From Poseidonibacter lekithochrous (GTDB taxonomy: Bacteria > Campylobacterota > Campylobacteria > Campylobacterales > Arcobacteraceae), in NCBI RefSeq assembly GCF_018861145.1, contig NZ_JAHKQT010000017.1:1-64000 (forward strand): 64,000 nucleotides of DNA. The letters run 5' to 3'. Positions 47,800-62,293 of the stretch are shown one piece after another; positions within the stretch are counted from its first letter, which is position 1, and the number at the start of each line of letters is the position of its first letter. The notes under the pieces are model-generated. The model saw nothing but the letters and a program-made list of their open reading frames with translations. It was not told where the DNA came from and searched no databases. The position numbers and the translations under genes are program-made.

Positions 47800-48459
47800 A
47801 TGAAAATACTATTAATGGAAGATGATATTATTTTAAATGAAATTATCTCCGAGCATTTAGAAGAGAATAACCATAAAGTTATTTGTGCTTTTGATGGAGA
47901 ATCTGCGCAAACAGAAATATACTCACAAACTTTTGATTTATTACTTTTAGATGTAAATGTCCCTAATATTACGGGCTTTGAATTATTAGAAGAGATAAGA
48001 AATAAAGATATAAAAACTCCTGCTATTTTTATTACATCGGCAAATATGCTTAAAGATATTGAAGAAGGCTTTAATATTGGTTGCGATGATTATATAAAAA
48101 AACCCTTTGAATTAAAAGAATTAGACTTACGTATCAATAATATAAGAAGATTACATGGTATCTGCCCTACTTCTAAAATTGAATTATTTAAAAATATATT
48201 TCTAGATACTGAAAACTTATTTATACAAATAGATAATAAAGATATTCATATTGCTCAAAAAGAGTGTGAGGTATTACTATATTTATTAAAAAATAAAACT
48301 AGAAACGTGAGTATAGATGAGTTAAGTATGAATCTTTGGTCATATGAAGATTCTCCTCTTAGTTCAACGATTAGAACTTATATAAAAAATTTGAGGAAAA
48401 TTTTAGGAGAAGATTCTATATTAAATACAAGAGGGGTAGGTTATCGATTTAACTGTTAG
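47800..48459 (+). CDS. OmpR/PhoB-family response regulator (metal efflux locus)
   Basis: A 219-residue regulator: receiver domain with phosphoacceptor Asp51 (LLLLDVNVPN) and YIKKPF switch region, and a winged-helix DNA-binding domain ending SILNTRGVGYRFNC. GGAGAG precedes the ATG. It overlaps the histidine kinase gene and stands directly ahead of the CusCBA-type operon, so it is the best candidate to bind the 11-bp direct repeats found upstream of that operon and of the RiPP operon. A CusR/CopR-like copper role is inferred from position. Confidence 0.9.
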   Translation: MKILLMEDDIILNEIISEHLEENNHKVICAFDGESAQTEIYSQTFDLLLLDVNVPNITGFELLEEIRNKDIKTPAIFITSANMLKDIEEGFNIGCDDYIKKPFELKELDLRINNIRRLHGICPTSKIELFKNIFLDTENLFIQIDNKDIHIAQKECEVLLYLLKNKTRNVSIDELSMNLWSYEDSPLSSTIRTYIKNLRKILGEDSILNTRGVGYRFNC

Positions 48460-49642
48460 TGAGAAAAGAACTTTTATTAGATTTTTATCCCTTTATTTAG
48501 GCTCTTCTTTAATTTTAATACTCTTAATTGCAACTTTATATTTTCAAAAAGAAAAGAGTTTATATTTTGATCTTTTAAAATCTAATATGCAAAATATTAC
48601 ATCAAAGATATCTTCTGAAATAATTATTTCACATATGCAAATAAATTCATTTGATAAAGAAAAATATATTGATAGTGGAAAATATGAAGGTTCTTTTGAA
48701 AGTAAAAGGGAAAAGTATTTAAAAAATAAAGATTATAAAATAGCTTTTTATGATGATAAACAAAAGAAATTATTTGGAAGTTTAAATGATAAAATAGATT
48801 TTTCTAAAACAATATCTTTTGATAATAAAAGTTTAATTCTTATTGATTCTTCAACAGTAGGACACTTGGGAATAGAATATATTGTTATAAAAGATCAATC
48901 TTTTGAAAATAAACTAAATGATTTAAAGATTAATATTATACTTTTCTTTTTAACTATTTATTTAATCATTGCTTTAATAGGTTTTTATCTTGCGAAACTA
49001 TTTCTAAAACCAATAAAAGATGAAAGAATAAAACTGAACAACTTTATAAAAGATACAACACATGAGTTAAATACACCAATTACAGCTATTTTAATGTCAC
49101 TTGAAAATGATAAATTAACACAAAAACAAATACAAAGAGTAAAACTTAGTGCAAAAAGGGTTTCTGATATATATAAAGATTTAATATATATTTTTTTACA
49201 AAAAGATGATGAAAAAAAACTTTTTGAAGATATATATCTTGATAATTTGATTTTAGAGCAGTTAGAATATTTAGAACCAATGGCATTAAAGAAAAAGATT
49301 AAGATTAATACATCTTTGGAGAAACTAAAATATCTTATTAATAAAGATGATGCAATAAGAATAATAAATAATTTAGTTTCTAATGCTATTAAATATAATA
49401 AAATAGGCGGACAACTTGATATATCTTTAAAGAATAGAATTCTAAAAATATCTGACACAGGTATTGGTATTGATGAAGAAAAACTTAAAGATATTTATAA
49501 AAGATATTATAGAGCTACAAGTGAACAAGGAGGATTTGGAATAGGTCTTAATATAGTAAATCATATTTGTGTCAACTATGATATTAAAATTGATGTGCAA
49601 TCTAAAAAAAATAAAGGTACAACTTTCTTCCTTCACTTCTAA
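48443..49642 (+). CDS. Sensor histidine kinase (metal efflux locus), probable ATC start
   Basis: A 399-residue two-helix sensor kinase if translation starts at ATC 48443. The N-terminal part includes SEKRTFIRFLSLYLGSSL and a first membrane helix, then a periplasmic domain of about 120 residues, a second helix at about 164-184, a phosphoacceptor region with His207 (TTHELNTPI) and an ATPase domain (NNLVSNAIKYN, ISDTGIGIDEEKL, GGFGIGLNIV). No ATG, GTG or TTG is in frame between the stop at 48437 and the ATG at 48587, which would cut off the first helix. GAGGGG lies 8 bases before the ATC. It overlaps the regulator gene by 17 bases. Confidence 0.8.
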   Translation: MDLTVSEKRTFIRFLSLYLGSSLILILLIATLYFQKEKSLYFDLLKSNMQNITSKISSEIIISHMQINSFDKEKYIDSGKYEGSFESKREKYLKNKDYKIAFYDDKQKKLFGSLNDKIDFSKTISFDNKSLILIDSSTVGHLGIEYIVIKDQSFENKLNDLKINIILFFLTIYLIIALIGFYLAKLFLKPIKDERIKLNNFIKDTTHELNTPITAILMSLENDKLTQKQIQRVKLSAKRVSDIYKDLIYIFLQKDDEKKLFEDIYLDNLILEQLEYLEPMALKKKIKINTSLEKLKYLINKDDAIRIINNLVSNAIKYNKIGGQLDISLKNRILKISDTGIGIDEEKLKDIYKRYYRATSEQGGFGIGLNIVNHICVNYDIKIDVQSKKNKGTTFFLHF

Positions 49643-49730: not shown

Positions 49731-50114
49731 ATGAAAAATTTATTTAAAATAATAGTAGCAATGTTTTTAACATTAGGCTTTTTAAATGCAGAACCCTTAG
49801 AACAAGTAGGTGAGAAAAATGGTTATGAGGTGAATTTAACATCAGATAAATCACTTATAGTTGGAAATAATGATTTATTTGTAGTATTGAGTAAAGATGG
49901 CAATGAAGTAAAAGACGTAAAAGTAAAGATAAAAGTATTTATGCCTGAAATGCCAGGTATGCCATATATGGAATATAAAGCAAAAGCAAAATTTATAGAT
50001 GGTAAATATAAAATGATGGTGAACTTTTCAATGGGCGGAACATGGCAGTATCATTTAAAATTTAAATCAAAAGATGGAAAGATACATACTATTAGAGGAA
50101 GTGTAAATATCTAA
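49731..50114 (+). CDS. YtkA/FixH-like periplasmic protein with Met-rich motif
   Basis: A 127-residue exported protein with signal peptide ending FLNA and a beta-sandwich domain of the YtkA type (GYEVNLTSDKSLIVGNNDLF). A methionine-rich stretch, MPEMPGMPYM at residues 71-80, with further Met95, Met96 and Met101, is well suited to Cu(I) or Ag(I). It heads the efflux operon, the place taken by other periplasmic chaperones (CusF) in E. coli, so I infer delivery of metal to the CusCBA-type pump. It shares its last base with the next ATG (TAATG). Confidence 0.72.
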   Translation: MKNLFKIIVAMFLTLGFLNAEPLEQVGEKNGYEVNLTSDKSLIVGNNDLFVVLSKDGNEVKDVKVKIKVFMPEMPGMPYMEYKAKAKFIDGKYKMMVNFSMGGTWQYHLKFKSKDGKIHTIRGSVNI

Positions 50115-51310
50115 TGAAAAATATAGCAATAGCTTTATCTTTTGCTATATCATCAAGTTTTGCATTAAGTCTTGATGATATAGTAGAAACTGCTTTACAA
50201 AACAATCAAGACTTAAAAAATATTCAATCTTCTATAGAAGTAGCAGATGAAAATATAAAACTTTCAAGAAAATGGAAAAACCCTACACTTTCATTAGGTA
50301 TAAATGATATTCATTTTGATGAGCCACTTAAAAGGGATGCTGAAGCAATGCAAGGTCAATTTATTGGTTTCTCTCAAGTCGTTCCTGTTGGAAATAAACT
50401 AGATATAAAAGAAGAAGTTTCAAAAAAAGATAAAAAGATTATTGTTTTACAATTAGAAGATAAAAAATTAGAATTGAAATCAAAAGTATATGAAGCATCT
50501 TATAATATTTTAATATTAGAAAAAAAGTTAGAACTTTTAATAAGTTATGAAAAAAATATTAAAAAGATAGAAAAACTTTCAAATGCTTTATATTCGTATG
50601 GTAAGTCAATACAAAATGAAATACTAAATGCAAAAGTAGCATATTCAAATGTACAAATACAAAAACAAAACCTAAAAAATATAATTGATAATTTATATTT
50701 AAAATTAGAGCAAATTTCATATGAAAAAATTGATAGTATTGATGCTTCACTTGAAATTGAAAAACTAGTTTTAAATATGGATATGCAAAATCATCCAAAA
50801 ATTCAAATTGAAGAAGAAAGAGTAAGTAAATTTAATAAACTTTCAAAATTAGAGTTAGAGAAAGAAAAAGGTGATATAAAAGTAAATCTTACATATTTTA
50901 ATAGAGATACAAAGTTTAAAGATTATGCAAATATTTCTGTTAATATTCCTCTTGCTTTATATAAGACAGAAAAGACTAAAGCTTTAAAAGAAAAGATAAA
51001 AGCAAGACAGCAAGTTAATAAACTAGAAGCTTTAAAACAAAACTTTAAAATAGAACTAATGTCTTTACAAAACAATATGAATAGTGCATATTTAAACTAT
51101 TCAATGATTAAAAAAACTATTATTCCTTTAAAACAAAAAATACAAAAGAATATTGAAAACTATAATAGCTTGACAAATATAAAACCTCAAAAAGCAATAA
51201 GTAATCTAAATGAATTAATATCTTATGAACTTAAATCTTATGAGCAATTAAAAGAGTACTTCTCAAGCTATGCAAAATCAAAATATTATACATACAAGGC
51301 AAACCAATGA
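50114..51310 (+). CDS. cusC: TolC-family outer-membrane efflux protein (CusC-like)
   Basis: A 398-residue outer-membrane factor with signal peptide (IAIALSFAISSSFALSL), then the family start LDDIVETALQNNQDLKNIQ. Long amphipathic coiled-coil helices cover most of the protein, as expected for the periplasmic tunnel; it is slightly shorter than typical TolC. It completes the tripartite pump with the adaptor and RND subunits downstream and overlaps the adaptor gene by 4 bases. Confidence 0.87.
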   Translation: MKNIAIALSFAISSSFALSLDDIVETALQNNQDLKNIQSSIEVADENIKLSRKWKNPTLSLGINDIHFDEPLKRDAEAMQGQFIGFSQVVPVGNKLDIKEEVSKKDKKIIVLQLEDKKLELKSKVYEASYNILILEKKLELLISYEKNIKKIEKLSNALYSYGKSIQNEILNAKVAYSNVQIQKQNLKNIIDNLYLKLEQISYEKIDSIDASLEIEKLVLNMDMQNHPKIQIEEERVSKFNKLSKLELEKEKGDIKVNLTYFNRDTKFKDYANISVNIPLALYKTEKTKALKEKIKARQQVNKLEALKQNFKIELMSLQNNMNSAYLNYSMIKKTIIPLKQKIQKNIENYNSLTNIKPQKAISNLNELISYELKSYEQLKEYFSSYAKSKYYTYKANQ

Positions 51311-52317
51311 ATATAATTAAAGCCACATTTTTATGCATGCTTACAATTAGTGTAATGAATGCAAAGATTATAGAAGTAGAACAACTATTTAATAAAAAAA
51401 CAGTATTAGTAAAAGAAGAAAAAATAGGTATTACTAAAAGCTTCTATGGTAAAACAAAAATTGATGAATCAAAAGTTGTAGATATAGTTACAAGGTTTGA
51501 TGGATATATAACTAAACTAAATGCAAATAAAAGCCTAATGTATGTAAAAAAAGGTGAGCCTTTATTCTCTGTATATAGTGATACGATTTTAAGTATACAA
51601 AAAGAGATAAACATAGCTAGAAGTATAAATAAAAATCTATATAGAAGTTCACTAGAAAAACTAAAAGTATTAGATTTAGACAAAGAAGAGATAAATAGAA
51701 TAAAGAAGAATAAAAGCTCATTTAATGGTATAAAAGTTTTATCTCCAATTAATGCAATAGTTCTTAAAAAGAGTATCAATCATAATAGTGCTGTTAAAAA
51801 AGGAAAGCTTCTTTTGCAACTTGCCAATATTGATAAACTTTGGTTTATAGCTCAAATTTATCAAAAAGATTTAACTTTTATTAAAGAAGACATGAATGCA
51901 TATATTTATATAGATGGCTTAACACAAGCTGTAAAATCTAAAGTTGATTATATTTATCCTATGGTTGATACAAAAACAAAGACAGTAGATGTAAGATTTA
52001 TAATTGATAATAAAGATTTAAATATTTATCCAAATATGTTTGCGAGTGTGAAAATCAAAGCTATAAATAAAACAATGTTAACTTTACCAAAAACAGCAGT
52101 ATTAACAAAAGGAAGCAATTACTATGTATTCAAACCAATATCAGATAAAGAGTTTGAACCTGTAAAAGTTGAAGCAAAAAGAATTAGCTCTAATAAATAT
52201 GAAATTTTAGATGGCTTAAGTGCAGATGATGAGGTTATAAATAATGCTTTATTCTTACTAGATTCCGATGCAGTTACAAATGCATTATATGAATCAGATA
52301 CTGATGATGATTGGTAG
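51307..52317 (+). CDS. cusB: Efflux RND periplasmic adaptor (CusB-like)
   Basis: A 336-residue membrane fusion protein with an N-terminal signal sequence (ATFLCMLTISVMNA), a barrel-sandwich segment (VDIVTRFDGYITKLNANKSL), a short alpha-hairpin, and beta-barrel and proximal domains (LWFIAQIYQKDLTFI, VDVRFIIDNKDLNIYPNMFA). It is shorter than E. coli CusB and lacks an extra metal-binding N-terminal region. It bridges the RND pump and the outer-membrane factor, whose genes flank it. Confidence 0.87.
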   Translation: MNIIKATFLCMLTISVMNAKIIEVEQLFNKKTVLVKEEKIGITKSFYGKTKIDESKVVDIVTRFDGYITKLNANKSLMYVKKGEPLFSVYSDTILSIQKEINIARSINKNLYRSSLEKLKVLDLDKEEINRIKKNKSSFNGIKVLSPINAIVLKKSINHNSAVKKGKLLLQLANIDKLWFIAQIYQKDLTFIKEDMNAYIYIDGLTQAVKSKVDYIYPMVDTKTKTVDVRFIIDNKDLNIYPNMFASVKIKAINKTMLTLPKTAVLTKGSNYYVFKPISDKEFEPVKVEAKRISSNKYEILDGLSADDEVINNALFLLDSDAVTNALYESDTDDDW

Positions 52318-52326
52318 GAGTAAGTT

Positions 52327-55300
52327 ATGGTTGAAAGTGTAATATCTTATAGTATTAAAAATAAATTTCTAATACTATTTTCTATAATTGTTTTAACATT
52401 TGCATCTATTTGGGCTGTGAAAAATACAGCCTTAGATGCCTTACCAGATTTATCTCCTCCACAAGTAATTGTACAAGTTAAGTGGGCAGGGCAGAGTCCT
52501 CAAACTATTGAAGAACAAGTATCATATCCCTTGATTTCAAATCTTATGTCTTTACCTGATATAGATACTGTTCGAGCTATGAGTTCTTTTCAAAATGCTT
52601 TAATATATATTATCTTTAAAGATGGTACTGACCTTTATGATTCAAGAAATAGAATATTAGAACAATTATCTCAATTACAAGGCACTTTTCCTCAAGGTGT
52701 AAATGTAGCAATTGGACCTGATGCCACAGGTGTTGGTTGGGCTTATGAATATGCTTTAAAATCTGATACTAAATCTTTAGATGAGTTAAGAACATTACAA
52801 GATTATTATTATAAATATGCACTACTTGGTGTTGATGGTGTTAGTGAAATTGCATCTATAGGTGGTTTTATTAAAAATTATGAGATTACACTAAATCAAG
52901 ATAAATTAGTTCAATATAACCTTAGTATCAAAGATGTTAAAAATGCAATAAGCAAAAACAATGATGAAAAAGGTGGACGAATAATCCTAGAAAATGGTTT
53001 TGAACATATGATTCAGGCCCGTGGTTATTTACAAAGTGTAGTTGATATAGAAAATATTACAGTAAAAACTATGGATTCTATTCCTCTTAAGATTAAAGAT
53101 ATTGCTCGGGTAAATATCACTTCTTCAAATAGACGTGGTATGGCTGATTTAAATGGTGAAGGGGACACAGTTGGTGGCATAGTAGTAGTTAGATATGGAG
53201 AGAATCCATATGCTGTTATAAAGGCTGTAAAAGAAAAAATAAAAACATTAAATGTCGATGGTATTGAAGTAATAGAAACTTATGATAGAACTTCACTTAT
53301 TGATAAAGCAATTGATACTTTAACAAATACCTTACTTGAAGAATCTATTATTGTAATGATTATAACGGGACTATTTTTATTCCATTTTAGATCTGCACTT
53401 ATTATTATAATTACCTTGCCACTTACTGTTTTAATCACTTTTTTACTTATGAAAGCTTTTGGGATGGGTTCAAATATTATGAGTTTAGGTGGAATTGCCA
53501 TTGCAATTGGAGCAATGGTTGATGCAACAATTGTTATGGTTGAAAATGCCCACAAATATCTTCAAGGAAAAGAAAATATTTCAAATGAAGAGAGAACTGC
53601 AATTATAATCAAATCTGCAAAGCAAGTAGGGCGACCTATCTTTTTTGCTCTTATTTTAGTAGTAGTTTCGTTTTTACCAATTTTTGCTTTAACAGGTCAA
53701 GAAGGAAGACTGTTTACTCCTTTAGCTTTTACCAAATCTTTTGCCATGATAAGTGGAGCAATACTTTCTATTACAGTGGTACCTATTTTAATGGTCTTTT
53801 TTATAAAAGGTAAGATAATGAGTGAAAATAAAAACTGGTTAAATAGATTTTTTATCTTCCTTTACTCCCCACTTTTAAAACTATCTTTAAAACTAAGATA
53901 CTTTGTAGTTGTTGCTTTTGTAGCAACGATTATATTAGCATATCCTGTTTATAAAAAACAAAACTGGGAATTTATGCCAATGATGAATGAAACTGTATTT
54001 ATGTATATGCCAGTAACTCCCTATGGTTTAGGAGTTGATTTGGCAAAAGAGTTAACTTTTAAAACTGATAAGATTTTAAAATCCTTTCCAGAAGTTCAAA
54101 CTGTATTTGGAAAAGCAGGGAGAGCAGATACAGCAACAGATCCAGCACCCTTAGCAATGATTGAAACAATTGTTACTTTTAAGCCAAAAGATCAATGGCG
54201 AGAGGGAATGACATATAAAAAACTAATGGAGGAGATGGATAGTAAGTTACAAATTGCAGGGCTTATTAATTCTTGGACCTATCCTATTAGAGGAAGAATT
54301 GATATGCTTCTAACTGGAATTCGTACTCCTTTAGGAATAAAACTATATGGAAATAATCATCAAAAACTAGAAGAAACAGCAGGATTAATAGAGCAAAAAC
54401 TTAAAAAGTTTGATAAAACACTTTCTGTTTCAACTGATAAAATAAATTCAGGATATTATTTAAATATTAATATCGATGAAGAGATGATTTCAAGATATGG
54501 GATTAACAAAAATGATATTTTATCAACAGTGTCATTAGGAGTTGCAGGTGCAAAAATATCAACATTCTTAGATGGGCTAGAGCGATATCCTATAAGCTTA
54601 AGATTTGAAACAATTCAAAGAGAAGATATTACAAGTTTACGAAATTTACAAGTTAAAACAAAATTAGGCTTCCAGCCTTTAGAAATGTTTGCCGAACTTA
54701 AATATGAAGAAGGGCCTTCAGTAATTAAATCTGAGAAAGCACTAAATGTAAACTTTATATATATTACACCAAAAAGTGGAATATCAGCAAAACAGTATAA
54801 AGATGAAGCAAAGGCAATATTGAAAGATATAAAGCTTCCTAGTGGGTTTTATTATGAGTGGGCAGGGCAAAGTGAGTATTTAGAATCAGCAATGCAAAGA
54901 CTAGCTTATATTATTCCTTTAACTTTTGTACTTATATTTATACTTATATATTTTGCACTAAGAAATATAACATATACAATGATTATTTTCTTTACACTAC
55001 CTTTTGCATTAACGGGTGGAATATTTTATTTAGATTTCTTAGATTTTAATATCTCAATCGCTGTTATTGTAGGTTTTCTAGCTCTTCTAGGTGTTGCTGC
55101 TGAAACCTCAATTGTTATGATTGTTTATTTACATGAAGCAATGCTTGAACTAAAGAAAAAAGATATAAAAATACAGAAGAAAGATATTTTTGAAGCAATT
55201 TATAAAGGTGCAGTATTAAGATTACGTCCTAAACTTATGACTTTATTTGCAATTCTAGGAGGACTTATTCCTATTATGTATATTGATGGAGTAGGGAGTG

Positions 55301-55443
55301 AAGTAATGCAACGAATAGCAGCTCCAATGATTGGTGGAATGATATCTTCTGCATTTTTAACTTTAATTATAATACCTTCTGTATTTTTTATATTAGCACT
55401 TAGAAGAGATGGGAAAAAGGAAGCTAATGATTTAAGAAATTAA
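52327..55443 (+). CDS. cusA: Heavy-metal efflux RND pump, CusA-like
   Basis: A 1038-residue HME-RND transporter with twelve predicted membrane helices and two large periplasmic loops. HME signatures are PDLSPPQVIVQVKWAGQSP and ISNLMSLPDIDTVRAMSSF; proton-relay region GGIAIAIGAMVDATIVMVEN is intact. Methionines at LAMIETIV and RIDMLLTGIRTPLGIKL correspond in position to the Cu(I)/Ag(I)-binding methionines of E. coli CusA, supporting monovalent copper/silver rather than zinc/cobalt/cadmium. It is the last gene of the efflux operon; the RiPP operon starts 146 bases later with no clear terminator between. Confidence 0.92.
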   Translation: MVESVISYSIKNKFLILFSIIVLTFASIWAVKNTALDALPDLSPPQVIVQVKWAGQSPQTIEEQVSYPLISNLMSLPDIDTVRAMSSFQNALIYIIFKDGTDLYDSRNRILEQLSQLQGTFPQGVNVAIGPDATGVGWAYEYALKSDTKSLDELRTLQDYYYKYALLGVDGVSEIASIGGFIKNYEITLNQDKLVQYNLSIKDVKNAISKNNDEKGGRIILENGFEHMIQARGYLQSVVDIENITVKTMDSIPLKIKDIARVNITSSNRRGMADLNGEGDTVGGIVVVRYGENPYAVIKAVKEKIKTLNVDGIEVIETYDRTSLIDKAIDTLTNTLLEESIIVMIITGLFLFHFRSALIIIITLPLTVLITFLLMKAFGMGSNIMSLGGIAIAIGAMVDATIVMVENAHKYLQGKENISNEERTAIIIKSAKQVGRPIFFALILVVVSFLPIFALTGQEGRLFTPLAFTKSFAMISGAILSITVVPILMVFFIKGKIMSENKNWLNRFFIFLYSPLLKLSLKLRYFVVVAFVATIILAYPVYKKQNWEFMPMMNETVFMYMPVTPYGLGVDLAKELTFKTDKILKSFPEVQTVFGKAGRADTATDPAPLAMIETIVTFKPKDQWREGMTYKKLMEEMDSKLQIAGLINSWTYPIRGRIDMLLTGIRTPLGIKLYGNNHQKLEETAGLIEQKLKKFDKTLSVSTDKINSGYYLNINIDEEMISRYGINKNDILSTVSLGVAGAKISTFLDGLERYPISLRFETIQREDITSLRNLQVKTKLGFQPLEMFAELKYEEGPSVIKSEKALNVNFIYITPKSGISAKQYKDEAKAILKDIKLPSGFYYEWAGQSEYLESAMQRLAYIIPLTFVLIFILIYFALRNITYTMIIFFTLPFALTGGIFYLDFLDFNISIAVIVGFLALLGVAAETSIVMIVYLHEAMLELKKKDIKIQKKDIFEAIYKGAVLRLRPKLMTLFAILGGLIPIMYIDGVGSEVMQRIAAPMIGGMISSAFLTLIIIPSVFFILALRRDGKKEANDLRN

Positions 55444-55469: not shown

Positions 55470-55589
55470 AATAAATAAAATACGACTGAACATTTGATAA
55501 AAATGAAAAAAAGAAAAGTGACTTTCTTTATTTGAAAGTAAATAAATTAAATGATAGAATTAATATCAATTAAAACTAAAGGAAATAAA

Positions 55590-55883
55590 ATGAATACTAA
55601 AATGAAATTAGCTGGAATTATGTTAGGAGCTGCTTTAACAACTACATCTGCGTTTGCAGGAAATGGTTCATGTGGTGCTGGTAAATGTGGTGGTGAAGCT
55701 AAAACTGAAAAAATGGACAAAAAAGGTTCATGTGGTGCTGGTAAATGTGGTGGTGACATGAAAAAGTCTGAAAAAATGGACAAAAAAGGTTCTTGTGGTG
55801 CTGGTAAATGTGGTGGTGACATGAAGAAAAAAGCTGAGAAAAAAGCTGGTTCTTGTGGCGCTGGTAAATGTGGAAGCAAATAG
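55590..55883 (+). CDS. Secreted cysteine-repeat peptide, bufferin/oxazolin-type RiPP precursor
   Basis: A 97-residue protein with signal peptide ending TTTSAFA at residue 23. The mature part is four copies of GSCGAGKCG separated by 11- or 12-residue lysine-rich linkers (such as EKMDKKG). Cysteines are at 28/33, 48/53, 69/74 and 89/94. Genes for a DUF692 oxidase and a DUF2063 partner follow. In bufferins and in Haemophilus HvfA (EGKCG motifs) such partners convert cysteines to heterocycles that bind copper; here the pentapeptide reads AGKCG. The start at 55590 follows AAAGGAAATAAA; an in-frame start at 55551 would spoil the signal peptide. Likely role: periplasmic copper sequestration. Confidence 0.88.
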   Translation: MNTKMKLAGIMLGAALTTTSAFAGNGSCGAGKCGGEAKTEKMDKKGSCGAGKCGGDMKKSEKMDKKGSCGAGKCGGDMKKKAEKKAGSCGAGKCGSK

Positions 55884-55907
55884 TATTTAACTATTAAAAG
55901 ATAAATA

Positions 55908-56732
55908 ATGATAAATTTAAACGGGTGTGGATTAGGTTTACGAAGTGATTTTTTACTTGATATTAAATCAAGTAAATTTCAACCAGATTGGTGGGAGGTT
56001 ACCCCTGAAAACTGGATGCATATGCCAAAGATTTTTGAAAAGTCTTTTGAAGAAGCAGTGTTTTCTAGACCAACAATCGCACATGGTTTATCTTTATCAA
56101 TTGGATCTGCAGACAAACTTAATAAAAAGTTTGTCAAACAGATCAAAACTTTCTTAGATAGATACAATATCGAATTTTATTCTGAACATCTTTCTTTCTC
56201 CTCTCTAGATAATAAACAATCTTATGAATTATTACCTGTTCCAATGACTAAAAAAATGGTAAATATTATAAGTGATAGAGTAAAAGAAGTTGAGGATATA
56301 ATTCAAAGAAATTTAATACTTGAAAATGCTACATATTATTTAGTTCCTTATTCAGAAATGAGAGAAGTTGATTTTATAAATGAAGTAATGGAAAAATCAG
56401 GTGCTCAAATGCTTTTAGATGTAAATAATGTATTTGTAAATTCTGTAAATCATTCTTTTAAAGGTAGAAAATTTATTGATGAAATTGATAAAAGTAAAGT
56501 AGCTTATATGCATATGGCAGGACATTATTTTGATGAAGATGCAGGATTAAAGATTGATTCACATGGTATGCCAATATGCTCAGGTGTTTGGAAGCTTTTA
56601 GAATACACTCTAAAACAAATAGATGCACCAGTTATGATAGAACGAGACAATAATGTACCTCCATTAAAAGAACTTGCAATAGAGTATAAAAAGATGGAAA
56701 GTATTTGTAAGGCAGTTCGTAATGGCAAATAA
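55908..56732 (+). CDS. DUF692 multinuclear non-heme iron oxidase (MNIO) RiPP-modifying enzyme
   Basis: A 274-residue TIM-barrel protein of the DUF692/MbnB/TglH family. Conserved segments are GLGLR (8-12), EVTPENW (30-36), HGLSLSIG (59-66), SEHLS (92-96), LEN (138-140), LLDVNNVFVN (169-178), HMAGH (202-206), DSHG (217-220) and ERDNN (245-249), including His, Glu, Asp and Asn residues that bind the iron cluster in relatives. These enzymes oxidise cysteine in peptide substrates. The upstream cysteine-repeat peptide is the obvious substrate. It overlaps the next gene by 11 bases. The ribosome-binding site is weak. Confidence 0.92.
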   Translation: MINLNGCGLGLRSDFLLDIKSSKFQPDWWEVTPENWMHMPKIFEKSFEEAVFSRPTIAHGLSLSIGSADKLNKKFVKQIKTFLDRYNIEFYSEHLSFSSLDNKQSYELLPVPMTKKMVNIISDRVKEVEDIIQRNLILENATYYLVPYSEMREVDFINEVMEKSGAQMLLDVNNVFVNSVNHSFKGRKFIDEIDKSKVAYMHMAGHYFDEDAGLKIDSHGMPICSGVWKLLEYTLKQIDAPVMIERDNNVPPLKELAIEYKKMESICKAVRNGK

Positions 56733-57414
56733 TATTGAAAGAGATGTGCAGAATAGATTTTTTGATATTATAAGTGATCAAAAAAACAATCCAAATAACT
56801 CTGCTTATAGTGTTTATCAAAAGCTTGTTTTTAATAGATATGAAGAAATTGTAAAGTCTACTTTTATAGAGTTTAGTAAGTATGTTAGTGAACATGAACT
56901 AGAAAAAAGTATTTATGAATTTCTAAAAAATCCTCCAAGTACACCTTTTGTATGGCAAATAGCAAATGACTATAGAAAATTTGTAAAAAAACAAAAACTT
57001 TTTCATAATAGAAAGTATTTATATGAGCTTTTATATTTTGACTGGATTGAAGTTGAGATATATATGAAAGAATATAAAAAAATCAAAAAATCTAAGTTTT
57101 CTTGGGATAACTCTTATCTTTTAGCCCCTTGGAGTAGAATTAAAAAATGTAATTTTGATATTATAAATAAAAATCATGAAACAAAAAGAGAAAACTTTTT
57201 AATTATATATTATGATTACAAAAGTGATGATGTTTTATTTAGAGAAATAAATCAATTTATATATACATTAATTAAAAAGGCAAATAAGAAAGAGAGTATT
57301 TCAAAGACTTTAGAATCTTTATGTAAAGAAAATGAAATAGATTTTAATGAAGCAAAAGAAATTTTATATGAGCCTTTAAAAGAGTTACTTCTTTCAAAGG
57401 CAATTTGTAATTAG
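56722..57414 (+). CDS. DUF2063-type partner protein of the MNIO enzyme
   Basis: A 230-residue protein. The N-terminal 90 residues fit the DUF2063 pattern (YQKLVFNRYEEIVKSTF, then a Trp and FVWQIANDYRKFVKKQ), found next to DUF692 enzymes as MbnC/HvfC/BufC-type partners that recognise the precursor leader or core. The C-terminal half (LAPWSRIKKCNFDII, ENFLIIYYDYKSDDVLF, ESLCKENEI) is like the second domain of those partners. Highly basic and A/T-rich, and diverged, so the assignment rests partly on position. Its stop overlaps the stop of the convergent response regulator gene by 4 bases. Confidence 0.75.
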   Translation: MANNIERDVQNRFFDIISDQKNNPNNSAYSVYQKLVFNRYEEIVKSTFIEFSKYVSEHELEKSIYEFLKNPPSTPFVWQIANDYRKFVKKQKLFHNRKYLYELLYFDWIEVEIYMKEYKKIKKSKFSWDNSYLLAPWSRIKKCNFDIINKNHETKRENFLIIYYDYKSDDVLFREINQFIYTLIKKANKKESISKTLESLCKENEIDFNEAKEILYEPLKELLLSKAICN

Positions 57415-58055
57415 TTTGTATTGATTCTGTAGCCTTCATCTAAAACATTTTCTATTAGTTCTGAATTCATTTTTTTTCTAAGTCTTTTGACCATACTTCT
57501 TATTGCATCACTTGTTTTTGACTCTCCCTCATAAACAAAATCTTCTATTTTGGAGTGGTCAATAATTTGATTATGATTTTCTATTAATAAATGTAAAAAA
57601 TTCTTCTCATTTTTAGTTAATGGACAAAGCTCATCTTCTATATATAATTCCTTCTTTCTAAAATAATATTTTGTAAAGGAATTAATTTCAATTAAGTTAG
57701 TGTCTTTTTTATTAATCCTTTCAATTTTAAATAATAATTCTTCAATTTCAAAAGGTTTTTTTATATAATCATCACAGCCAAGGCTATATGCTTCTCGGAT
57801 TTTCTCTATATCAATAATTGCACTAATCATTAGTACTCTAGAATTTGATTTAGATTTTTTAATATAAGCTAATAAGTCAATACCTTCTAAAGATGGCGTA
57901 TTTATATCTAAAATATATAAATCATAAGTATTGGATATATTCATATATGCTTCCATACCATCATAAAAAGAGTCTACTTTATAATTATAATTTTCTAAGG
58001 TTTCTTTTATCGCTTCATTTAAGCTAAAGTCGTCTTCTAATAATAATATTTTCAT
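57411..58055 (-). CDS. OmpR/PhoB-family response regulator (downstream of the RiPP operon)
   Basis: A 214-residue regulator with phosphoacceptor Asp50 (LYILDINTPS), switch lysine in YIKKPFEIEELLF, and a winged-helix output domain ending ENVLDEGYRINTN. It is paralogous to the other two regulators here. It lies 18 bases after its sensor kinase gene, and its end overlaps the DUF2063-type gene tail to tail. It might control the RiPP genes or the divergent secreted-protein gene; no target site was recognised. Confidence 0.88.
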   Translation of the reverse strand: MKILLLEDDFSLNEAIKETLENYNYKVDSFYDGMEAYMNISNTYDLYILDINTPSLEGIDLLAYIKKSKSNSRVLMISAIIDIEKIREAYSLGCDDYIKKPFEIEELLFKIERINKKDTNLIEINSFTKYYFRKKELYIEDELCPLTKNEKNFLHLLIENHNQIIDHSKIEDFVYEGESKTSDAIRSMVKRLRKKMNSELIENVLDEGYRINTN

Positions 58056-58073
58056 AAAGAAATTATATAATTC

Positions 58074-59708
58074 TTAGGTGTCAGTATTGTGGCAATTAAA
58101 AGTATAAATAAAAGTATTTTTATTTTCTTTTGAAATTACATCAATAAAGATATTATTATCATAAGCAATATCACTTACGATACTTAATCCTAAGCCATTG
58201 CCACCTTGTGTATTATTTTCTCTAGTATATTTTTTAAAAATAGTTTTACTATTAATAATCTTTTTTCCTGAAGATTCAAAGGACAAAATATTGTCTTCAA
58301 GTTTTATATAAATAGTTGAGTTTATATCTGAATATTTAATTGAATTAGAAATATTATTATCTATAAGTCTTGTAAGTTCAACTTCTGATATTTTAACTTT
58401 AATATTTGAATTATTATTAGTAATTTTTAAAACTCTTCCTTGATCAACTGCAACAGTTGAAAAATAATAAACTCTTTGTTGAATAAACTCTTGTAAATCA
58501 ATAATACTTTTTTCATATTCAATAAAATTCTTTGATATTAAATATGTCATATCTTCATAAGAATTTTTTAGAGTTTTTATCGCACTATCAATTTTTTGAG
58601 TATATTTATCTTCACCCCTTACTTTTTTTCTTAATTGATTGTTTAATGAAATAATTGTAAGAGGAGTTTTTATTTCATGAACTGAGTGTTTGATAAAAGT
58701 ATCTTTTTGATTTAATAAAAGTTCATTATCTCTTGCTTTTAATAGGAAATAAATTATTATAATAAATAAAAGAGATAAAATTATGGTAATTATATTTATC
58801 TGTTTTAATTCATTTTCCAAATTTGATTGAGCAAAAACTACAGAATAGATAATTTTCGCATCATCAAAAAAAGGTGATTTTTGAGAAAAGTATAAATTTT
58901 TATAGGTTTTCCCATCTTTTTCCCATCTTTGGGTAATAATTTTATTGTCTTTTATTTTGTCATTTAAATCTTTCCCTTTTTTTAAACGTAATTTAATTTC
59001 TTCTAAATTAATCTTTTTTACTTTAAATTCATTAAATACAAAATCCCCTATGTATCCATCTTTAAATATAATATAAGCATTTCCATTTTTTATTATCTCT
59101 GATGAGCTTATTAATTCTTGAATATTTTTTAAGTCATTAAAAGTATGACTGTATGTATAACTTATTTGTAGAATTCTATTTGAATTAGGCAAGTAAGAAT
59201 CAGAAAAACTTAAAAAATTACTTGAAAAAGTTTCAAAAATAGGAGCAGAAGAGCCTATAATATTTTCTTTTTTATGCTTATCAAAGAAGAATTTTGCAAA
59301 TGATAAATCAAAGCCTAAATCAGCTTTTAAAGTAGTATTTACAATTTTTAAATTATCATCAGTAATATAAATATTATATGGTTTATTTGTAAGCCCTTCA
59401 TTTAAAATATTATGTATTTCATTTAGTGAAATATTATATTCTTTATCTTTTAAATACTCAAGTGCTATTTTATGTTTTTGTATTATTGTTTCTTTATTTT
59501 TATAATACTTAAATAAGATAGAAGTTAGGAGTTTATTTGTTTCTCTTTGTATCTTATAAAATTGCATTTGCTGATTTTTTATATTATTTAGTTGAACATT
59601 TTTTATTAAATACTTATATCCAAAAAAGTTTGTTATAAAGAATAGAAATAATATTATAAGCATTACAATTGAGATTTTTGTTCTAAATTTATTAAATTTT
59701 GTATTCAT
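58074..59708 (-). CDS. Sensor histidine kinase with large periplasmic (Cache-like) domain
   Basis: A 544-residue kinase: membrane helix at about 11-34, a periplasmic domain of some 265 residues reminiscent of Cache sensors (SYLPNSNRILQISYTYSHTF, KNGNAYIIFKDGYIGDF), second helix at about 305-323, phosphoacceptor His344 in HSVHEIKTPLTI, and an ATPase domain with NNISNSIKYS and GGNGLGLSIVS. The D-x-G-x-G box is not evident (LSFESSGKKI). The ligand is unknown. It is divergent from the secreted-protein gene across 161 bases. Confidence 0.86.
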   Translation of the reverse strand: MNTKFNKFRTKISIVMLIILFLFFITNFFGYKYLIKNVQLNNIKNQQMQFYKIQRETNKLLTSILFKYYKNKETIIQKHKIALEYLKDKEYNISLNEIHNILNEGLTNKPYNIYITDDNLKIVNTTLKADLGFDLSFAKFFFDKHKKENIIGSSAPIFETFSSNFLSFSDSYLPNSNRILQISYTYSHTFNDLKNIQELISSSEIIKNGNAYIIFKDGYIGDFVFNEFKVKKINLEEIKLRLKKGKDLNDKIKDNKIITQRWEKDGKTYKNLYFSQKSPFFDDAKIIYSVVFAQSNLENELKQINIITIILSLLFIIIIYFLLKARDNELLLNQKDTFIKHSVHEIKTPLTIISLNNQLRKKVRGEDKYTQKIDSAIKTLKNSYEDMTYLISKNFIEYEKSIIDLQEFIQQRVYYFSTVAVDQGRVLKITNNNSNIKVKISEVELTRLIDNNISNSIKYSDINSTIYIKLEDNILSFESSGKKIINSKTIFKKYTRENNTQGGNGLGLSIVSDIAYDNNIFIDVISKENKNTFIYTFNCHNTDT

Positions 59709-59869
59709 TTATGCATGGTACAATAAAATTTATTAAATTATTATAGTTATTTACTGTAGTGATATTAAGAAAATAATATAAAATAATTTATTTAAAGACG
59801 AAATGACATTCTATTGACACATAAATAATGTATTATTGTTTATAAATAAAAATTATACAAGGAAGTAAA

Positions 59870-61033
59870 ATGACTAATAAATTTAAAACAATCGTATTAT
59901 CTGCATTATGTACGAGTACATTACTTGCAGGAGGTCACCCAAGTAAAACTGTTTCAATTGCTACTGATGGAACAGGAGATTTCCTAATTGCACCTTTTTA
60001 TGAAGCAAAAAATGATGTTTGTAGTGAAATTAAAGTTTTTAACACAAATGAAACAAACTCAATTTTAGCAAAAGTTTCTATTAGAGAAAGAGTTAGTTCT
60101 CAAGAAGTAGATTTACCAATATTCTTATCTCCAGGAGATGTGTGGTCAGGAACTCTTTGTGATGTACAAGGGAGAGTGATTTTAACTAGTGATGATGATT
60201 CTAATCATCCTTCTGTAAAAAAAGTATTATCTCAAGGTAAAGATTTAAGTGCTCATAGTATGCTTTCAGGTCATAGGGATATTGATTTTACAAATGGCTA
60301 TATAGAAATTTATCCAATTGCACAATTTGATGAATCAGGAACTAATAAAGTAGATAAATCTATTTTAGTTAACAGATGGGATATGTTAGCACAAGGAATT
60401 CAACCTCATGGTAATTTAAGAACTCAAGGTGTTGATGAAGATAGTTTAAGTGGAGTAGTTTCTTTTAAAACATTTAATAAGGAAACATCATCAATTGATA
60501 TGACAGCTTTTGAAAATGCACACTCAAAACAAAAAATGGGGAATAGTATAGCTTATGCTGAAGATACTAGTCCTGATATTTTATTAGGTCAAAAAGAGAA
60601 AATTCAGATTTTAAAATTACTTCAAAATAAAACAACTTCATTTGTTTATGATAATTATGGACATGAACAATCACTTTATATTTCTTTCCCATTTGGGTAT
60701 ACAGCTAATCAAGAAAGAAGTTTTAAATTAACAGTGAGAGATATGAGTGAAAACAAAGATGTTGAAAAAACTGTAATATTCTCTCCTCGTCCAACTAAGA
60801 CTAAATATTCAATTAAAGGTGAATTAGCAATCCTTTCAGTAAATGAATTAATTAAATTAACTTCAAATTCGCAAAATTATAAAAAAGGAATGATTCAAGT
60901 TAAAGAGATTACAAATCTTAGTAATCACCAATTAGGTTATGGACAATATGCTTCATTCTTACCAACATTAGTTTCAACAATGGAAGGTAGAGAAAAGTTT
61001 ATTAATTCCGTAGTTTCTACTCCAGTTAAATAG
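59870..61033 (+). CDS. Secreted protein of unknown function, 387 residues
   Basis: An exported protein with signal peptide ending STLLAG and mature start near GHPSKTVSIATDGTGDFLIA. The next part (IAPFYEAKNDVCSEIKVFN, SPGDVWSGTLCDVQG) looks like a beta-rich domain seen in surface or periplasmic proteins of several proteobacteria, with two cysteines (about 55 and 105) that may form a disulfide. No catalytic motif is visible. ACAAGGAAG precedes the ATG. A TTGACA box at 59814 and TATAAA at 59841 hint at a promoter, though their spacing is long. The 52-residue lipoprotein gene follows after 11 bases. Confidence 0.7.
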   Translation: MTNKFKTIVLSALCTSTLLAGGHPSKTVSIATDGTGDFLIAPFYEAKNDVCSEIKVFNTNETNSILAKVSIRERVSSQEVDLPIFLSPGDVWSGTLCDVQGRVILTSDDDSNHPSVKKVLSQGKDLSAHSMLSGHRDIDFTNGYIEIYPIAQFDESGTNKVDKSILVNRWDMLAQGIQPHGNLRTQGVDEDSLSGVVSFKTFNKETSSIDMTAFENAHSKQKMGNSIAYAEDTSPDILLGQKEKIQILKLLQNKTTSFVYDNYGHEQSLYISFPFGYTANQERSFKLTVRDMSENKDVEKTVIFSPRPTKTKYSIKGELAILSVNELIKLTSNSQNYKKGMIQVKEITNLSNHQLGYGQYASFLPTLVSTMEGREKFINSVVSTPVK

Positions 61034-61044
61034 TAGGTTGACTT

Positions 61045-61203
61045 ATGAAATATATAAAAGAATTACTTAGCTGTCTATTTGTTTTAACACTATTTACAGC
61101 CTGTTCTCAAAAAGAAGTAACTATTGTAGAAGTAGTAGATGTTCATACTGAAGAAGTACCATTACTCCATAGTAAGATTATTGCTGTTGAAAAATCTAGA
61201 TAA
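61045..61203 (+). CDS. Small lipoprotein, 52 residues
   Basis: A short exported lipoprotein starting MKYIKELLSCLFVLTLF with lipobox L-F-T-A-C (Cys20). The mature peptide is about 33 residues, valine- and glutamate-rich (SQKEVTIVEVVDVHTEEV), then KIIAVEKSR. It lies 11 bases after the 387-residue secreted protein gene and overlaps the Sel1-repeat gene, so the three form one transcription unit. GTAGGTTGACTT before the ATG offers a weak ribosome-binding site. Function unknown. Confidence 0.72.
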   Translation: MKYIKELLSCLFVLTLFTACSQKEVTIVEVVDVHTEEVPLLHSKIIAVEKSR

Positions 61204-62293
61204 AAATTCAATAATTAGTAGAAGTATTCTTCTTCTACTAGTTATCTTTTGTATTAATTCTTATGCAAAATTTCATGATATTTATAATATTGTAAATCCT
61301 TCTTTTCATTATCATATAGAAGGTAATAAATATAGAGTAATTTTAAAAGATACAGGATATGTGTCTTTAAAAGATAATGGCTTTAGATTTTTTCTTCCCA
61401 AACTTGTTAAAGATTATAATTTAGAACTATTAAGAGTAAGTTCTATTGGTTACCTAGATGGTTATTTATCAAAAAATAAATATTTTGATAAAAAGAATAT
61501 ACTAAACATAGGTTTTGTAGATTTAAATTATTATCTTACTGATTATAACGAGCAAAATCAGAGACAACTAAACTACATATTAAATGATAAAATAATTCCT
61601 TATAAAAAGTCTACTTCTCTAATAATTGAAGGATATAATATCCCTTTATCAATAAGTAATAAACTTGATAAATGGTTGTACTTTACATTTAAAAAAACAA
61701 GTGATATTCGTCTAAAAGAAATGTCATATACTTTTAATATGACGTTTGATAAAGAGGAGATAGATACTTATGTTAAAAATAATTTAAATATTAAAAACTA
61801 TGATAAATCAGAATATAGATATATAGATGCATATCTAAATAATTTAACAAAGATAAAAAGCAATTTTTATACACCCATTAAAGAAGTAAAAAGAACAAAT
61901 AAAATTAAGAAAAAATCAAAATACTATTTAGATATTAAAAGAATAATAAACTATATAAATATAGATGGAATAAAAAACAATAAAAATGATTTATTAAAGG
62001 CTTTAAATAATCCTAAAAATCAGAATATTGTTGGAAAAATAAAGTTTAATCTAGGCGTTTATTATCTAAATAGTAAAAAAAGAATTGATAAGAAAAAGTC
62101 TCTTAAATATTTTAAAGAATCAAAAGAAAAAGAGGCTTATTTTAATCTAGGCATATTTTATTATATAGGCCTATTTGTAAAAGAAAATGACAAAATAGCC
62201 TATAAGTATTTTAGCAAATCATCTGATTTAGGTTTTTCTAGAGCAAGTAAAAATAAAAATATTATGGAAAAATATAAAGTGGGAACAAACTAA
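61187..62293 (+). CDS. Exported Sel1/TPR-repeat protein
   Basis: A protein of about 368 residues if it starts at TTG 61187, giving a signal peptide ending FCINSYA; an ATG at 61139 would add 16 residues overlapping the lipoprotein gene and is less likely. The middle is lysine- and tyrosine-rich with no recognised domain (PSFHYHIEGNKYRVILKD). The C-terminal 90 residues carry two Sel1-like repeats (FNLGVYYLNSKKRIDKKKSL and FNLGIFYYIGLFVKENDK), which usually mediate protein contacts. The stop overlaps the convergent MATE gene. Confidence 0.65.
   Translation: MKNLDKNSIISRSILLLLVIFCINSYAKFHDIYNIVNPSFHYHIEGNKYRVILKDTGYVSLKDNGFRFFLPKLVKDYNLELLRVSSIGYLDGYLSKNKYFDKKNILNIGFVDLNYYLTDYNEQNQRQLNYILNDKIIPYKKSTSLIIEGYNIPLSISNKLDKWLYFTFKKTSDIRLKEMSYTFNMTFDKEEIDTYVKNNLNIKNYDKSEYRYIDAYLNNLTKIKSNFYTPIKEVKRTNKIKKKSKYYLDIKRIINYINIDGIKNNKNDLLKALNNPKNQNIVGKIKFNLGVYYLNSKKRIDKKKSLKYFKESKEKEAYFNLGIFYYIGLFVKENDKIAYKYFSKSSDLGFSRASKNKNIMEKYKVGTN

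Follow-up and report, generated by a model that had tools for sequence, protein, structure and literature searches.

What is the product of a three-gene operon whose first gene encodes a small secreted peptide with four copies of the sequence GSCGAGKCG? The operon lies at positions 55590-57414 of a 64,000-nucleotide stretch of DNA from Poseidonibacter lekithochrous (hereafter the window). The host is a marine Arcobacter-type bacterium with a 3.0-Mb Arcobacteraceae genome, and its close relatives with names are Poseidonibacter ostreae and uncultured Arcobacter. A preliminary description, made from the sequence of the window, had reported a 97-residue precursor followed by a DUF692 (MNIO) oxidase and a DUF2063-type partner, and had called this a bufferin/oxazolin-type operon. 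The coordinates given there are right, and profile matches for the precursor, enzyme, and partner agree with the assignment. We consider it probable that the product of the three genes is a copper-binding peptide of the captophorin type, which would carry 5-thiooxazoles formed by the MNIO and its partner and would buffer Cu(I) in the periplasm beside a CusBA pump. Operons of this kind are already known. What is new here is the variant of the repeat and of the enzyme sites, the clade-wide loss of DoxX, and the linkage to the pump. The operon comprises the following features.

55590..55883, plus strand: precursor peptide of the HvfA/captophorin type, 97 amino acids (ATG at 55590, stop at 55883), with an apparent Sec signal and then four GSCGAGKCG units (eight cysteines)
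55664..55690, plus strand: DNA unit of cassette 1, NGSCGAGKCG
55724..55750, plus strand: DNA unit of cassette 2, KGSCGAGKCG
55787..55813, plus strand: DNA unit of cassette 3, KGSCGAGKCG
55847..55873, plus strand: DNA unit of cassette 4, AGSCGAGKCG
55908..56732, plus strand: MNIO (DUF692) oxidase, HvfB-like, 274 amino acids (Pfam and NCBIfam profiles, alignment, predicted structure)
56722..57414, plus strand: partner with DUF2063 and RRE-like domains (PME type 1, HvfC-like), 230 amino acids (profiles, predicted structure)

The 3ˊ end of the MNIO gene and the start of the partner gene overlap by 11 nucleotides, and the genome has no other MNIO gene.

A recoded di-cysteine repeat

The precursor matches the NCBIfam model for the HvfA-family repeat, KCGExKCG_twice (NF050137), with 34.3 bits (cut-off 19.5, E 1.4e-8). 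Its signal peptide, called by eye with no predictor, is KMKLAGIMLGAALTTTSAFA, followed by a Gly residue. A Pfam profile search yielded no match to DUF2282, the domain that marks a bufferin-type precursor. The cassettes are in register, with DNA spacings of 60, 63, and 60 nucleotides. The same gene trio with the same cassette is present at 30 further Arcobacteraceae loci (31 with the window), and its occurrence here is therefore not due to chance.

Across these 31 loci, which together hold 125 cassettes, the units are nearly invariant and the linkers drift. The residue preceding the first cysteine is Ser (96 cassettes), Ala (25), Gly (3), or Thr (1), but never Lys, whereas Lys precedes the second cysteine in 125 of 125. 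Gly, the preferred small residue, follows the first cysteine in every cassette. Position 1 of the second half is Ala (116) or Ser (9), and never Glu.

The preliminary description had regarded the CX4C spacing and the AGKCG motif as departures from known relatives. The second cysteine is indeed present, but its spacing is that of the ordinary EGKCGEGKCG di-cysteine cassette. A step of five residues between cysteines is the commonest both in the 31-locus clade (125) and in EGKCG precursors (87), and both cysteines so spaced are modified in the Microbulbifer precursor MmrA, where Cys40 and Cys45 of a single di-cysteine cassette each lose four hydrogens (PMC12538549). We therefore rejected the spacing as a novelty. 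Likewise, AGKCG does differ from EGKCG, but it is not peculiar to this clade, being found in beta-proteobacterial EGKCGAGKCG precursors (L077, L078). KCGAGKCG intermediates occur in other Campylobacterota (L094, L096, L109) and in beta-proteobacteria (L077). As judged by comparative sequence analysis, SCGAGKCG is KCGEGKCG with Lys replaced by Ser and Glu by Ala. The features that set the system apart, which the preliminary description had not named, are by the same comparison the replacement of Lys by Ser or Ala before the first cysteine, the loss of the acidic residue at position 1, and differences at the enzyme contact sites discussed below.

The gonophorin precursor of N. gonorrhoeae (L128) also carries two GSCG sites (QGSCG and EGSCG) besides EGKCG. 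The modification state of these sites would bear directly on the Ser-Cys sites of the window.

The oxidase and its partner

The MNIO matches the Pfam model MbnB_TglH_ChrH with 287.7 bits (cut-off 25, E 9.5e-86). Among NCBIfam models, HvfB ranks first (311 bits), followed by BufB (247 bits, short of its equivalog cut-off of 310) and, far behind, by ApyH, ChrH, and MbnB. The predicted structure, with a mean predicted local distance difference test score (pLDDT) of 88.7, has 3bww as its best PDB match (E 4.4e-23), and TglH and MbnB are also matched. In a tree of 104 enzyme rows the protein falls with the enzymes of Lys-Cys captophorins and away from bufferin-type rows, although long branches make the exact placement of comparators unsure. 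The family placement of the DUF692 protein that the preliminary description had proposed as a check thus puts it with HvfB by profiles and on the Lys-Cys captophorin side of the tree.

Residues reported as needed for activity are N175, D242, and H244 in HvfB (PMC13419390) and Asp249 in FonB, the enzyme of the Fontimonas fontiphorin cluster (PMC13097082). Their equivalents are kept in the window as N173, D217, H219, and D247, which are invariant in 39 aligned enzymes; the numbering was mapped via 3bww, with an inferred offset of 1 to HvfB.

The partner scores just above the Pfam cut-off for DUF2063 (28.6 bits versus 27.2) and just under that for NGO1945_C (26.2 versus 27). Its predicted structure (pLDDT 88.5) best matches 3dee, the gonococcal partner (E 8.6e-8), and next 8hi7_A, the partner subunit of TglHI. 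By profile and predicted fold, the protein is a DUF2063 partner with an RRE-like C-terminal domain, of the PME1 type.

A proposed pathway to a copper-binding peptide

In the pathway that we favour, the DUF2063/RRE partner would present the 97-residue precursor to the iron-dependent MNIO. The enzyme would carry out a four-electron oxidation at each cysteine, with the loss of four hydrogens, and form a 5-thiooxazole between the carbonyl oxygen of the preceding residue and the cysteine. This probably happens at both cysteines of every one of the four cassettes ([S/A]CGAGKCG). With the signal removed after AFA, the mature peptide has a calculated mass of 7151.30 Da; conversion of all eight cysteines would lower it to 7119.05 Da, and conversion of just the four Lys-preceded ones to about 7135.2 Da. 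After export by Sec, the peptide would bind Cu(I) in the periplasm and act there as a buffer beside the neighbouring CusBA-type Cu(I) pump. Several characterised members of the family bind Cu(I), and all characterised MNIO-PME1 products carry 5-thiooxazole (PMC13097082). The same study found that FonBC accepts replacement of the Lys before the cysteine by Ala, Arg, or Thr, and that at position 1 it tolerates all tested non-proline residues except Arg, with Ala being fine in the first repeat (PMC13097082).

Several points weigh against this proposal. All three proteins miss their NCBI equivalog cut-offs, with scores of 22.2 against 95 bits for HvfA (NF050188), 311.4 against 360 for HvfB (NF003818), and 70.8 against 142 for HvfC (NF050145). 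FonBC is impaired by a Glu-to-Ala change in the second repeat (E6A), which is the same change as that seen here (PMC13097082). However, FonB and the enzyme of the window have different residues at this contact, and the behaviour of FonB is therefore not simply transferable. In addition, copper protection in vivo by bulbicupramide, the Microbulbifer product, is not robust, and the CusBA linkage is found only in part of the clade, the others having two-component genes.

The copper-efflux neighbourhood

The genes upstream of the operon are arranged in the order two-component system, YtkA-like, TolC-like, CusB, and CusA, followed by a promoter-like site.

47800..49642, plus strand: two-component system, response regulator and histidine kinase (homologues flank the operon in other genera)
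49731..55443, plus strand: copper-efflux genes encoding YtkA-like, TolC-like, CusB-like, and CusA-like proteins (profiles, alignment, synteny)
55532..55560, plus strand: promoter-like site TTGAAA-17-TAGAAT with TG before the second hexamer, just 5ˊ of the precursor gene (consensus match; such sites are no commoner in this DNA than in shuffled sequence)

The CusA-like protein carries the motif AIGAMVDATIVMVEN, which resembles the form of copper and silver pumps, and this form is also seen in the aligned E. coli CusA. Divalent-metal pumps instead have the motif DFGx3DGAx3VEN (PMC3637150), unlike the protein of the window. Moreover, the alignment shows that the protein keeps Met573, Met623, Met672, and Glu625, the Cu(I) ligands of E. 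coli CusA (PMC8092243). Because the adjoining CusA keeps all of these ligands, a copper role for the operon appears well supported from the sequence. A literature search on copper in Poseidonibacter returned nothing useful.

CusA lies 5ˊ of the operon not only in the relatives closest to the window but also in several other genera. The majority of the other clade members instead have two-component genes divergently upstream of the operon, and at two loci (L036, L100) YtkA and TolC genes follow these divergent genes. On the other side of the operon, the window holds a second two-component system and two further genes (at 59870 and 61139) before a MatE gene. In close relatives MatE directly follows the operon, and the block at 57411-62293 thus looks like an insertion special to this strain. 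For the same reason, the downstream two-component genes (57411-59708) were rejected as part of the system.

Enzyme sites that might read the repeat

In the model of Gadgil et al., FonB Arg16 is proposed to contact Glu1 of the substrate and Phe250 to contact Lys3 and Gly5 (PMC13097082). The aligned residues of the window enzyme are Ser13 and Asn248. This mapping was made through the RR pair and the DF pair that 3bww and the N. gonorrhoeae enzyme contain, and through a near-equal spacing (234 versus 235). Ser and Asn are found together in 31 of 31 enzymes of the Arcobacteraceae clade, and Asn at the Phe250-aligned site is common to nearly all Campylobacterota sequences seen. Such a change at the presumed repeat-reading site would fit the absence of Glu1 and of the first Lys from the repeat.

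Outside the clade, the NGSCGAGKCG cassette recurs at a single locus, L098 (G043 contig 52; 7% of the assembly is contamination), where the enzyme likewise has Ser at the Arg16 site and a DoxX gene separates the precursor and MNIO genes. An approximately unbiased (AU) test rejects the grouping of this locus with the clade (p = 0.008), and the combination of this cassette with the Arg-to-Ser change therefore seems to have arisen twice. In one Campylobacterota family (L103, L104, L139-L143), the Arg16 site is Asp, Glu, or Asn and the precursors are rich in KGKCG or RGKCG; Asp or Glu accompanies KGKCG-rich repeats in L103 and L139-L143.

These cases create an apparent reversal of charge between the Arg16 site and the repeat, which hints at a matching of charges. 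The mean charge at repeat position 1 is −0.69 for enzymes with Arg at site 13 (n = 64), +0.06 for Ser (n = 35), +0.52 for Asp, and +0.15 for Glu. Nonetheless, independent contrasts between site 13 and repeat charge give r of −0.01 to −0.07, ranking 38 to 73 of 133 columns, and the only three well-supported independent pairs show no net agreement. There are also exceptions to the pairing, with L097, L101, L106, L108, and L110 keeping Arg without an acidic residue and L096 keeping the acidic residue without Arg. Despite the strong raw table, co-evolution of enzyme and repeat at site 13 is thus not established.

Alternatives to full modification

The asymmetry of the cassette allows another reading, in which only the Lys-preceded cysteine becomes a thiooxazole and the Ser- or Ala-preceded cysteine stays a thiol, such that each CX4C unit forms a mixed clamp for one Cu(I). 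We regard this as possible but doubtful. The asymmetry is fixed, with Ser, Ala, Gly, or Thr before the first cysteine and Lys before the second in all 125 cassettes, and the Asn of the Campylobacterota sequences aligns with FonB Phe250, which contacts Lys3 and Gly5 in the published model. However, the first cysteine always has the preferred small Gly after it, FonBC accepts Ala, Arg, and Thr before the cysteine, and both cassette cysteines are modified in MmrA. It is unlikely that, beyond this, the clade enzyme has been re-tuned for the asymmetric [S/A]CG-AGKCG unit by the equivalents of Arg16-to-Ser and Phe250-to-Asn changes, and that differing modification of the two cysteines gives a mixed thiol/thiooxazole copper clamp.

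A peptide that is a plain cysteine-rich metal binder, or one that serves for a different metal (silver, gold, or cadmium) or a stress such as oxidants, with copper being incidental, is quite improbable. Ag(I) is also exported by CusA-type pumps, which would suit this explanation, but the precursor is strictly co-conserved with the MNIO and its partner, several characterised members bind Cu(I), and the neighbour is of the CusA type. Least probable is a different heterocycle, whether of the oxazolone/thioamide type known from methanobactin or of some other kind: an enzyme under both the HvfB and BufB equivalog cut-offs with two pocket residues unlike FonB might make one, but the profile order, the tree position on the Lys-Cys side, and the PME1-type partner, given that characterised PME1-dependent MNIOs all make 5-thiooxazole, speak against it. 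We therefore retain 5-thiooxazole formation at both cysteines as the preferred reading.

Comparison with known systems

The Haemophilus Hvf/oxazolin operon (HvfA-HvfB-HvfC with the DoxX protein HvfD), which makes Lys-Cys captophorins, shares with the window the A-B-C gene order, a secreted precursor with KCG-type cassettes at a cysteine step of five, an MNIO with a DUF2063/RRE partner, and the active-site residues. The window differs in its lack of DoxX, its [S/A]CGAGKCG rather than EGKCGEGKCG repeat, its CusBA linkage, and its equivalog scores. It also has Ser and Asn where the H. somni enzyme (3bww) and the N. gonorrhoeae enzyme have Arg and Phe at the FonB Arg16 and Phe250 sites. The fontiphorin (fon, Fontimonas) and bulbicupramide (mmr, Microbulbifer) clusters are closer in layout, being minimal A-B-C operons with di-cysteine cassettes and no DoxX, and modification of both cysteines is a feature of mmr. 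They differ from the window in having EGKCG repeats and in belonging to another phylum, and the specificity residues reported in FonB are Arg and Phe.

Bufferins (the DUF2282 type BufA1 and the Cys-Lys type BufA2), whose role is copper buffering, share the MNIO-PME1 operon and a precursor with a signal peptide. The window differs from them in precursor type, in scoring lower for BufB than for HvfB, and in lying on a separate side of the tree. The CxxxxC precursor family has signal-peptide precursors with CX4C motifs and a PME1 partner, but its published description sets it apart, with a metallo-lactamase-like gene in 54% of clusters and DoxX in the core (PMC12452194). A CxxxxC-like locus on a Klebsiella plasmid (L135), with an MBL-fold gene, DoxX, and KCASGKCG, has an enzyme only 38% identical to the MNIO of the window.

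As the preliminary description had noticed, there is no DoxX-like HvfD gene; none is found in the window or its contig, and the three DoxX genes of the genome are on other contigs. DoxX adjoins the operon at 0 of 31 clade loci, compared with 23 of 41 other Campylobacterota-like loci, and thirteen clade loci covered over 7-13 kb also lack it. Because the fon cluster (PMC13097082) and likewise the mmr cluster have no DoxX, its absence was rejected as a novelty of a single locus and stands only as a fact of the clade.

MNIO genes are common on plasmids. A captophorin operon on a Moraxella plasmid (L129, 2975-4147) has an IS4-type transposase gene between the MNIO and partner genes, and 73 Escherichia plasmid records hold a relative of the window MNIO, with about 38% identity among the matches listed. 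In another genome, a second MNIO copy (L158, G537 contig 4) is broken by two TAG stops and an intact copy lies elsewhere.

Implications for the family

In the literature consulted, peptides with 5-thiooxazoles are described mainly from Pseudomonadota, and the main texts of two published surveys make no mention of Campylobacter or epsilon-group genera. Among 397 Campylobacterota genomes, 28 have an MNIO match, 26 of them above the cut-off. As far as sequence comparison can tell, the repeat of the window and the enzyme residues that may read it differ from every studied case. The locus and its relatives thus represent a system that is spread patchily over Campylobacterota, with a recoded repeat and with enzyme differences at the proposed specificity sites. 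They offer natural enzyme/substrate pairs for testing how MNIOs choose cysteines, as well as a direct genomic tie between a peptide operon of this kind and a Cu(I) pump.
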